A stretch of DNA of 64,000 nt. Origin: Sulfurimonas sp. HSL1-2 (GTDB taxonomy: Bacteria; Campylobacterota; Campylobacteria; Campylobacterales; Sulfurimonadaceae). The stretch covers positions 1,733,573-1,797,572 of the forward strand of contig NZ_CP147914.1 of assembly GCF_039645565.1 (NCBI RefSeq). Direction: 5' to 3'. The translations under genes were made by a program, and so were the position numbers. This document shows, piece after piece, positions 18,443 to 24,871 of this stretch (position 1 is its first letter; each line of letters starts with the position of its first letter). The notes beneath the pieces were generated by a model that saw only the letters and a program-made list of their open reading frames with translations, was not told where the DNA came from and did no database searches.

Positions 18443-19285
18443 TCAGTAGGCGTCAAAAAGCGCCTGGATGTGCGCGGCGTCATGGGTCGCGAGGTAGAGC
18501 GGCCGCCGCTGCCCGTGGCGGACGCGTTCGTCGAAGGTCTCCGTTTCCCGGCGGTAAAAAATACCCAGTGGAAACGGCCCAGTCTCCATCGCCCGCGTCA
18601 TCGCCGCGCCGAGATCGGACGCGTCATGGGAGGCGTCCAGTTCGTAAGTATGCTCTTTGAACCAGCCGAAGGTGTTGATCTTGTTGAAGGTCACGCAGGG
18701 CTGAAAGATGTCGACCAGGGCGTAACCGCGGTGCAGGAAGGCGGCTTTGAGGACGCTTTTGGCATGTTCGGGGTTCCCGATATTGACCCGGGAGACGAAC
18801 CCCGCCCGCAGCGCCAGCGCCACGGCCAGGGGGTTGAAGGGCTCGTTGCCGACCCCGTCGACCTGCACCTTCGTTTCCATCCCTCTCTGGCTCGTCGGCG
18901 ACGCCTGCCCCTTGGTCAGCCCGTAAATCATATTGTTATGGACGATGTGCACGATATCGACGTTGCGGCGGACGGCATGCAGGAAGTGGTTGCCCCCCTC
19001 CCCGTACATATCGCCGTCGCCCCCCTCGGCGACAACGGTCAGTTCGGGGTTGGCCGCCTTGACGGCCGTCGCGACGGGTACGGCACGCCCGTGCAGCACT
19101 CCGAACATATTGACGTCCACGTAATAGGGCGTCTTCGCCGCCTGTCCGATGCCTGAGACGATGACGACGCTCCGCCCTTCGGCGCCGAGGTCGTCCAGCA
19201 CCTTGCGGATCAGCGTGAGGATGCCGAAGTTCCCGCACCCCGGGCACCAGCCGATATCGACGTTTTCGCGTTCAAACGGTTTCAT
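18443..19285 (-). CDS. korB: 2-oxoacid:ferredoxin oxidoreductase beta subunit (KorB-like)
   Basis: 280 residues from MKPFERENVDIGWCPGCG, whose ATG overlaps the stop of the alpha gene; longer in-frame versions run into that gene. Cysteines C14 and C17 (WCPGCGN) and a late PCVTFN cysteine supply iron-sulfur ligands. GDGDMYGEGGNH is the thiamine diphosphate/magnesium motif. Two-subunit enzymes of this class interconvert 2-oxoglutarate or pyruvate and acyl-CoA plus CO2 with ferredoxin. Which 2-oxoacid is used here cannot be decided by eye. Confidence 0.88.
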   Translation of the reverse strand: MKPFERENVDIGWCPGCGNFGILTLIRKVLDDLGAEGRSVVIVSGIGQAAKTPYYVDVNMFGVLHGRAVPVATAVKAANPELTVVAEGGDGDMYGEGGNHFLHAVRRNVDIVHIVHNNMIYGLTKGQASPTSQRGMETKVQVDGVGNEPFNPLAVALALRAGFVSRVNIGNPEHAKSVLKAAFLHRGYALVDIFQPCVTFNKINTFGWFKEHTYELDASHDASDLGAAMTRAMETGPFPLGIFYRRETETFDERVRHGQRRPLYLATHDAAHIQALFDAY

Positions 19286-21858
19286 GAGAGCTCCTTTAGC
19301 ACGGCAGCGAGTTCCGCTGCCAGCTGATCGGCGAAATAGGCAAAGCCGTTGCTTTGCAGAATACGCCGGTCGGCCACAATGCCGTGCAGCGCCAGCTGCT
19401 CCGCAAAGGCGCCGTCGGCATTGTTTTCGACGACGACACGGTAGTCGTAGGTCTCCAGGAAGGACAGCTGTTCGGGGTTGAGCGGATGCATCCAGGCGAA
19501 GTGGACCTGGCAGGTCCGGTCGTCGCCCAGTCGTGCCAGGGCCTCGGCAATCGCTCCGCGGCTCGAGCCCCAGCCGATCACGGCGATGCTGCCTGCCCCG
19601 CGCACTTCCGGTGCCCACGCCTCGGCCCTTATGCCTTCGGCCTTGCGGGCCCGCTTGGCGACCATCGCCTCGCGGACACGGAAATCCTCGGTGATCTGCC
19701 CCCTTGCGTCATGCTCGTGCCCGTCACTGCAGACCAGCCCCTCGCCGCCGCCCGGGACGGCCCGGGGACTGACGCCCGAGGGGGTATCAACATAGCGGTT
19801 GTAGGTTTCGGCAGCCGGCACAATGTAGCGCCGCTGTGCGAATGCGGCGAAATCGACATCGCCCGTCATCGCCATCGTATCGGCGAGGTACTGGTCGCTG
19901 AGCACGATGACGGGCACCTGCCAGCGGTCGGCCAGCTCAAAGGCAAGGTGGCCCAGTTCGACGCATTCATGCAGTGAACCCGGGGCAAGCACGATCCGCG
20001 GGAAGGGGCCGTGCCCCGAATGCAGCGCCAGGTTCAGATCGCCCTGCTCGCTGCGGGTCGGCAGCCCCGTCGCCGGACCGGGCCGCTGCGCGAGATAGAC
20101 GACGGCGGGGGTCTCCGTGATGCCCGAGAGGCTGATCCCCTCGCCCATCAATGCAAACCCGCCCCCCGAGGTCGTCGTCAGCGCCCGCGCCCCGGCGTAC
20201 CACGCCCCCATCACAAGGTGGATCGAAGCGATCTCGTCCTCGCTCTGTTCCACGGCGATCTCAAAACGTTTGGACATCCCCGCCATAAAGTTCAGCACCC
20301 CCGTGGAGGGGGACATGGGGTAGGAGGCGACGAAGTTGCACCCCCCGGCGAGAAAGCCGAAGCCGCAGGCGGTCGTGCCGTCCATCAGGTGCAGGGCTGC
20401 GGCCCCTTCGGGATGGGAATGGGGCAATGGCGGCAGCGGAGGGTGCTGAAGGGTACGGCCCGCTTCGGCCCCGGCCTGCACCGCGGCGGCATTCCCCTCA
20501 TCCCCGGAAAACCGTGCCTGCACGACAGCCTTCAGGGTGTCGCTCTCAAGGCCGAGCATCCCGTAGACCAGCCCGGCGGCATAGGTGTTGGCGTAACGCG
20601 CGTCGCCCAGCCGCTGCGCCTCGCGCTGCATCGCAACGGCGATCGCGCCGGGCGCCTCCGCCGCAAAACGCTCATCGGTCAGCACGACCGTTTGCACGGT
20701 CAGGCGCGGCGCGGCATGGGTCAGGGCCAGGGCATCGAGCGCAATAAAGAGGTCCACCTCCCAGCAGGGGGCCTGCAGCGGGGCATCGGCGATACGGATA
20801 AGGGTCGTATTGCTCCCCCCGCGGACCCGGGACATGAACTCCTTGCTCGAATAGACGTAGTAGCCGCTTCGGACAAAGGCGTCACTGAGCAGCTTCTCAA
20901 GCGTATCGATCCCCATACCTGCCGCCCCGCCGATCAGTATGGAGAGACTCTGCGCAGTTCCGGGCGGGGTTGAGGCTGCCGACAGAGGTCCCAGCAGCGG
21001 CGGCAGGGAAGCGTCTGCGGCAAATGGCACCTCATACCGTCCTGCCGAAGGCAGTTTCGCATCCGTCTCCGGCGAAGGCGCAGGCCCGGATGCCGCCGCG
21101 GGAGCGGGTGTGGAGGTTGTTTGCACCTGGGGATAAGGCATGCTCTCGCCCCAGGTGATCTTGCCGCCGTAGTAGCCGAGCACGATTACCCCCGCGCCCG
21201 TCAGCAGGACGATCGCATGGTAGGCAATGCTTTCGGCCCGCCACGTGTAAACGATGCCCGGTTCTTCCATATAGAGCACGATCGCGACAACCCCGGCCAC
21301 CAGCATCGCTACGGAAAGAATGATCTTGACGGCGAAGGGGCGGCGCCAGATGCCGCCGTAATTGATCCGCCAGCTGATCAGCCCCGGTACCATCGCGACC
21401 GCCCCCATAACCGTCGCCGCCAGGAAGGTATAGAAAACGGCGGCGGCATAGAGCGCAGTCGGCACGGCGAAAAAGAGCAGGTCCATCAGCGTGGCAAAAA
21501 GGTGAAGGGCGATGGGGAAATGAACGGTCATAGGATGGGGATGGTAGCGGCGGTAAAGCGCCTGCCAGCGGCGGCGGCGTTCCTTTGCACTGTCCGGGGG
21601 AGCGGGCGGGTCGTCGTCGGCCTGCTGCCGCGGCTCCGCTTCCAGGGTGCCGACGACGCTGTAGCGTTCAAACACCTCCTCGCCGTGCGGGGCACCCTCG
21701 AGCATCGGGGTCAGGTCCCGACCTGCCTGGTGCATCCCCTGGTGGTTCCCCTCCGCCCACATCGGGCTCTCGGAAACGTCGTAGACCTTCCCTTTATAGG
21801 CAACATAGGCAGGTCTTCCTTCACGGCCGTCATACGCCGCGAGTTCACGCGAAGTCAT
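19282..21858 (-). CDS. korA: 2-oxoacid oxidoreductase alpha/gamma subunit fused to cytochrome-b5-like and DUF2231 membrane domains
   Basis: 858 residues from the ATG preceded by AAAGGAGGAGG. Residues 1-75 resemble a short cytochrome-b5-like heme domain: H43 in HQAGRDLT and H58 in PHGEEVFERY sit where b5 heme ligands occur (H39 is nearby). Residues about 105-240 form a DUF2231 domain (HPHPMTVHFPIALHLF) with four membrane helices, leaving both ends on the same side. From about 305 a gamma domain begins (IGGAAGMGIDTLEKLL), and from about 500 the alpha domain (GGCNFVASYPMSPSTG). Ordinary KorA proteins have about 550-600 residues, so about 300 are added. Confidence 0.88.
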   Translation of the reverse strand: MTSRELAAYDGREGRPAYVAYKGKVYDVSESPMWAEGNHQGMHQAGRDLTPMLEGAPHGEEVFERYSVVGTLEAEPRQQADDDPPAPPDSAKERRRRWQALYRRYHPHPMTVHFPIALHLFATLMDLLFFAVPTALYAAAVFYTFLAATVMGAVAMVPGLISWRINYGGIWRRPFAVKIILSVAMLVAGVVAIVLYMEEPGIVYTWRAESIAYHAIVLLTGAGVIVLGYYGGKITWGESMPYPQVQTTSTPAPAAASGPAPSPETDAKLPSAGRYEVPFAADASLPPLLGPLSAASTPPGTAQSLSILIGGAAGMGIDTLEKLLSDAFVRSGYYVYSSKEFMSRVRGGSNTTLIRIADAPLQAPCWEVDLFIALDALALTHAAPRLTVQTVVLTDERFAAEAPGAIAVAMQREAQRLGDARYANTYAAGLVYGMLGLESDTLKAVVQARFSGDEGNAAAVQAGAEAGRTLQHPPLPPLPHSHPEGAAALHLMDGTTACGFGFLAGGCNFVASYPMSPSTGVLNFMAGMSKRFEIAVEQSEDEIASIHLVMGAWYAGARALTTTSGGGFALMGEGISLSGITETPAVVYLAQRPGPATGLPTRSEQGDLNLALHSGHGPFPRIVLAPGSLHECVELGHLAFELADRWQVPVIVLSDQYLADTMAMTGDVDFAAFAQRRYIVPAAETYNRYVDTPSGVSPRAVPGGGEGLVCSDGHEHDARGQITEDFRVREAMVAKRARKAEGIRAEAWAPEVRGAGSIAVIGWGSSRGAIAEALARLGDDRTCQVHFAWMHPLNPEQLSFLETYDYRVVVENNADGAFAEQLALHGIVADRRILQSNGFAYFADQLAAELAAVLKELS

Positions 21859-21906: not shown

Positions 21907-22587
21907 TTACGTGGCGGTCGTTTCGTTTGCCTGCATCGTATCGACGTAGTCGCACACCTCGGTGTTGTCGTTGCACGGCTGGCTGTAGCCGGCGATGGGG
22001 TCGTTCTCCTCCGCGGCGAGGTTGTCGGAAACGAAGCGCCAGTTGATCAGCTGCCACCACTTCTCCAGGTACTCCGGCCGGGCGTTGCGGCGGTCGATGT
22101 AATAGGCGTGCTCCCAGACGTCGCAGACCAGCAGCGGCCGCCGTCCGTAGCGTACGGGCGTATCGGCGTTGGAGGTCGTCTCGATCACCAGGGTGTTCTC
22201 GGCGCTCAGTACGAGCCAGGTCCACCCCGACCCGAACAGCCCGGCCGCCGCGGCGAGGAAGGCACCCTTGAAGCCCTCCATCGAACCGAAGTCGCGCGCA
22301 ATCATCTCGGCGAGCTCCGCCGACGGCACCGTGGCACCTGCGGAGAGACCCAGCCAGTAGAAATCGTGGTTGAAGACCTGGGCGGCGTTGTTGAAGATGC
22401 CGCCCTCCGCGTCTCGGATGATATTGAGCAGCGGTGCCTCTTCGAAGGGGGTCCCCTCGATCAGGCCGTTCAGTTTGTTGACGTAGCCGGCATGGTGTTT
22501 CCCGTAATGGAAGGAGACCGTTTCGGCAGAGATGTTGGGTTCCAGCGCCGTCGCTTCGTACGGCAGTTTCATCAGTTCGAATGCCAT
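21907..22587 (-). CDS. sodB: Iron superoxide dismutase
   Basis: 226 residues. Metal ligands are visible: H in SFHYGKHH, H in NHDFYW, and D and H in LLVCDVWEHAYYID. The FNNAAQVFNHDFYW segment is typical of the Fe-type enzyme. A C-terminal tail of about 25 residues (after YSQPCNDN) is longer than usual. Good ribosome site (AAAGGAG). It precedes korA by 48 bases on the same strand, suggesting that the oxygen-sensitive oxidoreductase is co-expressed with oxygen defence. Confidence 0.95.
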   Translation of the reverse strand: MAFELMKLPYEATALEPNISAETVSFHYGKHHAGYVNKLNGLIEGTPFEEAPLLNIIRDAEGGIFNNAAQVFNHDFYWLGLSAGATVPSAELAEMIARDFGSMEGFKGAFLAAAAGLFGSGWTWLVLSAENTLVIETTSNADTPVRYGRRPLLVCDVWEHAYYIDRRNARPEYLEKWWQLINWRFVSDNLAAEENDPIAGYSQPCNDNTEVCDYVDTMQANETTAT

Positions 22588-23653: not shown

Positions 23654-24871
23654 ATGCAGCAAGAACACATCGTCATTCTCGGCGGCGGCTACGGCGGTCT
23701 CAGGGCCGTCGAGCATCTCGTCGGCGACCCGCGCTTCCGCATCACGCTGGTGGATCGCCACCCCTACCACTACCTGCAGACCGAAGCCTACGGCTACATC
23801 GCAGGGCGCTTCGACATTCACGACATCACCATAGACCTGGCAAACTGGTGCCGGGGTTTCGGCAGCCGTGTCCGCTTCGTGCAGGCCGAGATCACCGGCA
23901 TCGACCCGGAAGCGCGGACGGTCCTCCTCGAAGAAGAGCGCCTGGGATACGACAGCCTTATCATCGCGACCGGGGCGCGCACGAACTTCTTCGCATTCAT
24001 CAAGGGACTGCGGGAGAACAGCTACGGGGTCAAGAACCTCCAGCGCGCCTTCGCTTTCCGCCAGACCTTCGAACAGCTCGTCTACACCAAGGTCGAAGAG
24101 CCCCGTGACCCGGCGCCCGGCGAACTGCATATCGCCATCGGCGGGGCGGGGCTGAGCGGCGTCGAGATCGCCGCCGAGATGGCCGACGTCATCGAAAAAC
24201 ACCACAAAACCCTCGGTACCAACGCCAAAAAGATCCGGATCACCCTCATCGACGCGGCCCCGTCGATCCTGCCGGGGATGAGCGACTACATCGTCCGCAG
24301 CACGACGATGCGCCTGGAATCCCTCGGCATCCGGATCCTGACTAACGCCTTTATCGACAGGGTCGAAGACGGCATCATCCATCTCAAGGACGAGACGCGC
24401 CTCCCCTACTGTTTCATGATCTTTACCGGGGGGATCATCGCCAACACCCCCGCCTCCGAGCCGGCCCGCGAGACCAACCGGCTCGGCCAGATCCTCCCCG
24501 ACGCCTACCTGCGGCTCGCACCGCACATGAACGTCTATGCCGTCGGGGACTGCGTCGAACTCAGGGATACGGCGGGCAATCTCCTGCCGCCGACGGCCCA
24601 AACGGCGGAGAAAAGCGCCGAATACGTCGCGGACGCGATCAAAAAACGCCTCGAGGGCAGGCCCGTCGCCCCCTTCCATGCCAAGGTCGACGGGGTCTTC
24701 GTCGCCCTCGGCGGCCGCTATGCCGTCGGCGAACTCTTCGGCGTCATCCGGGTCAAAGGCTACACGGCCTACCTGCTCAAAAAACTCATCACCAAGGGGT
24801 ACTACCTCGGGCTGAAACTGCGGATCAACACCGGCTTCAAAAAGCGGAGCGCAGTGCACGAAATTAACTGA
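23654..24871 (+). CDS. ndh: Type II NADH dehydrogenase (NDH-2-like FAD oxidoreductase)
   Basis: 405 residues. FAD-binding GGGYGGL at the N-terminus, NADH-binding IGGAGLSGVEIAAEM near 167, and the C-terminal FAD motif VYAVGDCVE near 292. The C-terminal segment (about 350-400) has amphipathic helices suited to membrane attachment. Transfers electrons from NADH to quinone without pumping. A sulfide:quinone oxidoreductase is less likely because the conserved cysteines are lacking. Confidence 0.85.
   Translation: MQQEHIVILGGGYGGLRAVEHLVGDPRFRITLVDRHPYHYLQTEAYGYIAGRFDIHDITIDLANWCRGFGSRVRFVQAEITGIDPEARTVLLEEERLGYDSLIIATGARTNFFAFIKGLRENSYGVKNLQRAFAFRQTFEQLVYTKVEEPRDPAPGELHIAIGGAGLSGVEIAAEMADVIEKHHKTLGTNAKKIRITLIDAAPSILPGMSDYIVRSTTMRLESLGIRILTNAFIDRVEDGIIHLKDETRLPYCFMIFTGGIIANTPASEPARETNRLGQILPDAYLRLAPHMNVYAVGDCVELRDTAGNLLPPTAQTAEKSAEYVADAIKKRLEGRPVAPFHAKVDGVFVALGGRYAVGELFGVIRVKGYTAYLLKKLITKGYYLGLKLRINTGFKKRSAVHEIN

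Follow-up and report, generated by a model that had tools for sequence, protein, structure and literature searches.

We find that the alpha subunit of a 2-oxoacid:ferredoxin oxidoreductase (OFOR) in Sulfurimonas sp. HSL1-2 is fused, together with its gamma domain, to an N-terminal cytochrome b5 domain and a four-helix membrane domain of family DUF2231. The gene lies in a stretch of 64,000 nucleotides (hereafter, the window; GC content 58.5%) of a 2.52 Mb genome. OFORs, which serve 2-oxoacid metabolism and the reductive TCA cycle, are classically soluble and ferredoxin-linked, and most are sensitive to oxygen. The fusion itself is real. What it does is a matter of graded probability: there is about an even chance that the protein belongs to a membrane-bound 2-oxoacid oxidoreductase that sends electrons via heme to menaquinone. 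Slightly less probable is the fully specified form of this proposal, a ferredoxin-independent 2-oxoacid:menaquinone oxidoreductase in which a Gln-ligated or 3Fe cluster, the b5 heme and a heme or quinone site in the membrane would lead into respiration.

Table 1 Features of the fusion locus in the window, with related loci in other phyla
Feature	Position	Strand	Details and evidence
korA fusion gene, cytochrome b5–DUF2231–POR gamma–POR alpha	19282..21858	minus	858 aa; Pfam/NCBIfam, intact homologues
Cytochrome b5 domain, residues 3-72	21643..21852	minus	PF00173; 6nzx/6vz6 matches
b5 histidines H39, H43, H58	21742-21744, 21730-21732, 21685-21687	minus	kept in 38/38
DUF2231 four-helix membrane domain, residues 108-237	21148..21537	minus	PF09990; AlphaFold helices
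Membrane-domain histidines H119, H214	21502-21504, 21217-21219	minus	distribution of His by class
Disordered, fast-evolving linker, residues 241-300	20959..21138	minus	pLDDT 30-44; dN/dS 0.5-0.6
POR gamma domain, residues 314-465	20464..20919	minus	PF01558
POR_N alpha domain, residues 503-734	19657..20352	minus	PF01855; YPMSP (513-517), R592/T597; StOFOR equivalents YPITP, Arg344, Thr349
korB, 280 aa	18443..19285	minus	C14, C17, C197 present; third Cys is Q48 (19142-19144)
sodB, Fe superoxide dismutase	21907..22587	minus	PF00081/PF02777; 48 bp upstream of fusion
Stand-alone b5-DUF2231 plus small ORF	L044 4864-5822, L045 to 5622, L046 644-1604, L047 6001-6968, L139 1222-2178		

The fusion frame starts at an ATG preceded by a strong ribosome site (AGAAAGGAGGAGGCC-ATG). 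All four Pfam matches exceed their gathering cut-offs: Cyt-b5 with 28.3 bits (cut-off 23.7), DUF2231 with 35.6 (cut-off 26.4), POR gamma with 83.4 and POR_N with 160.9. On the catalytic part, the NCBIfam model TIGR03710 (2-oxoacid:acceptor oxidoreductase alpha) scores 542 bits, above its cut-off of 483. The AlphaFold2 model runs from a b5 fold through a pre-membrane helix, four long helices (residues 109-131, 135-167, 173-198 and 208-236) and a low-confidence linker (about 238-298) to an OFOR alpha fold; the complete model has its best PDB match in 6n2n, the 2-oxoglutarate:ferredoxin oxidoreductase of Magnetococcus. A preliminary description of this DNA had claimed a one-frame fusion with complete gamma and alpha domains and four helices at about residues 113-240, all of which these results bear out. 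Between congener pairs, dN/dS is 0.03-0.06 for the b5 domain and 0.06-0.15 for DUF2231, comparable to the 0.07-0.08 of the alpha part, and 0.5-0.6 for the linker.

At least 24 genomes of Campylobacterota have the same unbroken frame with the same domain order. Within the genus it is present in four genomes assembled as single contigs, where the gene of the three relatives is 89-91% identical to that of the window, in four further genomes of the family (59-64% identity), and, full-length and free of stops, in 17 more loci of a named genome collection (Sulfuricurvum, Sulfurimonas, Sulfurovum and other Campylobacterota), two of which belong to one MAG. Within the phylum the N-terminal part is patchy (9/298 sampled genomes). 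Split versions of the same genes also exist. L023, from another family, has a 226 aa b5-DUF2231 gene after sodB, and this gene shares four bases with an independent korA. Two MAGs of Sulfurovum (L054 and L056) have a separate DUF2231 gene without b5 that overlaps korA, with korB next in line. The split forms keep the gene order of the fusion, with overlapping genes in one operon, and since the KorB tree places L054 and L056 among the fused forms, fission left the genes coupled. The split versions are what could be said for a sequencing error that merged two genes. We regard such an artefact as practically negligible and reject it, because the same continuous frame recurs in at least 24 genomes, several of them complete, and the separate genes stand in the same order elsewhere; indels between congener fusion genes are in-frame only, and the dN/dS values agree. 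The comparison thus reveals no frameshift. Separately, in one Helicobacteraceae MAG (L019/L028) the frame of the fusion is broken within the gamma domain, near L028 6978, either through a sequencing error or because the gene is decaying. Two fragmentary genomes have copies that are decayed or carry internal deletions (L057 5956-6648; L010 1501-1803 onward), with pieces of b5, DUF2231 or KorA fused onto the end of KorB.

The b5 domain resembles the archaeal proteins 6nzx and 6vz6 closely in sequence (52-56% identity) and fold (1.1 Å over 73 residues; Z 15.5 for 6nzx), with all three histidines present. The archaeal domains were solved in isolation, with no attached OFOR in the entries seen, whereas the window domain is fused to one. 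H43 and H58, singled out in the preliminary description, are invariant in all sequences bearing the domain, as is a third histidine, H39, which it had not named. 6NZX is listed among b-type cytochromes (PMC7096707). Of the heme proposed in that description, predicted binding by the b5 domain is well supported by archaeal b5 homology and the three conserved histidines, two of which would be the axial ligands.

DUF2231 is recognised by its Pfam match and by four transmembrane helices seen in both models and predicted in every relative. The positive charges lie on the side where the protein begins and ends, which predicts an N-in/C-in topology with the termini in the cytoplasm. The earlier suggestion of a membrane tether is therefore strongly supported by these predicted features. 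H113 is invariant in the membrane domain (40/40 sequences). H119 in TM1 and H214 in TM4, which lie on antiparallel helices, occur in all 27 Campylobacterota copies, 26 of which adjoin or are fused to KorA (the contig of the other, L036, is without KorA). The stand-alone b5-DUF2231 proteins of Acidobacteriota, Nitrospirota and Deferribacterota consist of the same two-domain module as the window N-terminus but have no neighbouring OFOR, lack H119 (0/13) and nearly always lack H214 (1/13). H119 and H214 might together provide a site for heme or quinone; they belong to one lineage and so may reflect one event. A fold search gave DUF2231 no clear match to a membrane-heme fold: Foldseek matches to heme-b bundles of the b561/FdnI type were weak and tied with generic bundles, and none to b561 rose above noise. 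A small ORF of about 80 aa lies 3' of several of the stand-alone genes in Acidobacteriota and Nitrospirota, in similar copies; the one tested, that of L044, is a rubrerythrin (PF02915, E 9e-8).

The partner gene korB overlaps the stop codon of the fusion via ATGA. TIGR02177 gives its product 332 bits against a cut-off of 262, so that gamma-alpha and beta subunits both exceed the curated cut-offs of the OFOR family. The preliminary description had called this korB normal, which is wrong because a ligand cysteine of the proximal [4Fe-4S] cluster is replaced by glutamine. The third and fourth ligands we take to correspond to Q48 and C197 of the window KorB, which thus has Gln at the third of the four Cys positions. 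Gln occupies this position in 30 of 75 KorBs and Cys in 45, and the KorB tree separates the two groups by one change (support 100/98), with Gln in 30/30 members of one clade and Cys in 45/45 others. Judged by its sequence, the window KorB belongs to the OFOR family yet lies outside the canonical cluster type. For solved OFORs, the account of the proximal cluster names a CXGC motif and cites work on the four cysteines (PMC5020499). The Gln clade takes in unfused OFORs of Acidobacteriota and Nitrospirota (L088, L089, L090, L108, L109 and L110), and the Cys-to-Gln change therefore predates the fusion; these unfused enzymes seem worth biochemical study of their own. Since the remaining three cysteines are present in nearly all copies, KorB appears more likely to bind a 3Fe cluster, or one with a non-Cys ligand, than to have no cluster at all. 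C507 of KorA was considered as a substitute fourth ligand and dropped, as L110 has the Gln but not that Cys. A strict pairing of the Gln variant with b5-DUF2231 is likewise unsupported: Acidobacteriota G375 and G424 have the Gln and no b5-DUF2231 match.

The catalytic part is otherwise that of a known OFOR. The two-subunit (alpha-beta)2 enzymes StOFOR1/2 (PDB 5b46-5b48) and the Magnetococcus enzyme (6n2n) also combine a gamma-alpha fusion with KorB and share fold and catalytic residues with the window enzyme. The equivalents of StOFOR Arg344, Thr349 and Lys49 are retained (R592, T597 and K51), the TPP motif GDGD is present, and YPITP reads YPMSP in the window alpha subunit (Thr to Ser). No ferredoxin-domain subunit is seen in either the window enzyme or the known two-subunit OFORs. 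The latter, however, are without a b5 or membrane domain and have the third cluster cysteine, the opposite of the window enzyme in both respects. Elsewhere the same genome encodes two ordinary multi-subunit, ferredoxin-linked OFORs. An open frame of 1229 aa that matches KorB weakly (G000:C1:1976252-1976614) has the size of a single-chain pyruvate:ferredoxin oxidoreductase (NifJ).

In the mechanism we propose, the alpha-gamma part and KorB would use thiamine diphosphate and CoA for the oxidative decarboxylation of a 2-oxoacid, namely pyruvate, 2-oxoglutarate or both. The altered cluster of KorB would pass the electrons to the b5 heme at the cytoplasmic face, from which they would reach menaquinone, perhaps by way of H119/H214 as a site for heme or quinone. 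The Cys-to-Gln change may raise the cluster potential or yield a [3Fe-4S] or labile cluster, and this would suit exposure to oxygen and an acceptor of much higher potential than ferredoxin. Alongside the ferredoxin-linked OFORs of the genome, which it would supplement, the enzyme would work oxidatively; quinol-driven carboxylation was rejected as, on general grounds, thermodynamically implausible. If this holds, the enzyme would resemble PoxB (pyruvate:quinone oxidoreductase) in delivering 2-oxoacid electrons to quinone; PoxB is a flavin enzyme of a different type, and its product is acetate, not acyl-CoA.

Electron transfer to the quinone pool can reasonably be inferred from several lines of evidence: the recurrence of the fusion and the operon overlap of the split genes, the invariant b5 histidines and the close archaeal b5 match, the four helices with their charge pattern, the limitation of H119/H214 to the KorA-linked Campylobacterota lineage, the retained catalytic residues, the Gln throughout the KorB clade, and the two ordinary OFORs that already serve ferredoxin. 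Against it stand the weak resemblance of DUF2231 to heme-b bundles, the two Sulfurovum operons without b5, the greater age of the Gln and its presence in genomes without b5-DUF2231, and the possibly single origin of H119/H214. The absence of b5 from L054 and L056 would also fit a module that serves only to anchor KorAB, otherwise an ordinary enzyme, at the membrane, for instance close to oxidases that consume oxygen, with electrons going to ferredoxin, the acceptor of homologous two-subunit OFORs (PMC5020499). This is unlikely, though the best placed of the alternatives, given the strong constraint on all b5 heme histidines, the two additional membrane-domain histidines that track KorA and the altered cluster site.

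Less probable still is a device against oxidative stress, in which hemes of b5/DUF2231 would hand 2-oxoacid electrons on to oxygen, superoxide or peroxide, as a protective sink that works with SodB. Here sodB is adjacent in 14 of the 32 loci compared (13/31 without the window), rubrerythrin lies beside the tested stand-alone copy in another phylum, and E. coli has a membrane b-type cytochrome that acts as a superoxide oxidase (PMC7096707); but 18/32 loci have no sodB nearby, DUF2231 has no above-noise fold match to b561, and gene neighbours are not a mechanism. About as improbable, or marginally more so, is a loss of oxidative function along with one cluster cysteine, leaving non-oxidative 2-oxoacid decarboxylation or cluster-free electron transfer. 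Q48 is found in all clade members, and in StOFOR1 the cluster is required for the oxidative and not for the non-oxidative reaction (PMC5020499); the other three cysteines nevertheless persist in nearly all copies, and the strong constraint on the fused redox domain argues for electron transfer.

Work under oxygen exposure, which the preliminary description had read from the position behind sodB, keeps some support from that adjacency and from the rubrerythrin, but with sodB present at just 14/32 loci the link is suggestive only. A sigma-70 promoter scan found nothing. Close by and divergent from the operon, at 23654-24868 on the plus strand, is a gene for a pyridine nucleotide-disulphide oxidoreductase resembling a type II NADH dehydrogenase or sulfide:quinone reductase.

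A two-subunit Oor is already known in mangrove Campylobacteria (Thiomicrolovo, Sulfonitrofixus and Hydrocurvibacter), grouped with the KorAB of Hydrogenobacter, and probably represents the same genes as the window KorAB or close relatives; in the available part of that account, anaerobic, ferredoxin-type use is proposed, Thiomicrolovo is described as aerobic, and the fusion and altered KorB go unmentioned (PMC12403661). The term "cytochrome b5" is absent from that paper. The open literature, a coverage that leaves most subscription journals outside, yielded nothing relevant on an OFOR fused to cytochrome b5, no paper on DUF2231 with cytochrome b5 and one incidental paper on DUF2231 alone.

In a group of sulfur-oxidising bacteria, a normally soluble enzyme has become one protein with a heme domain and four membrane helices, which suggests a direct feed of electrons into the respiratory membrane. 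If so, this would be a respiratory version of an OFOR, with acyl-CoA still the product, and a naturally occurring case in which to test the influence of the proximal cluster on the acceptor that an OFOR uses. It may also help to explain the oxygen tolerance of Campylobacterota that use the reductive TCA cycle.
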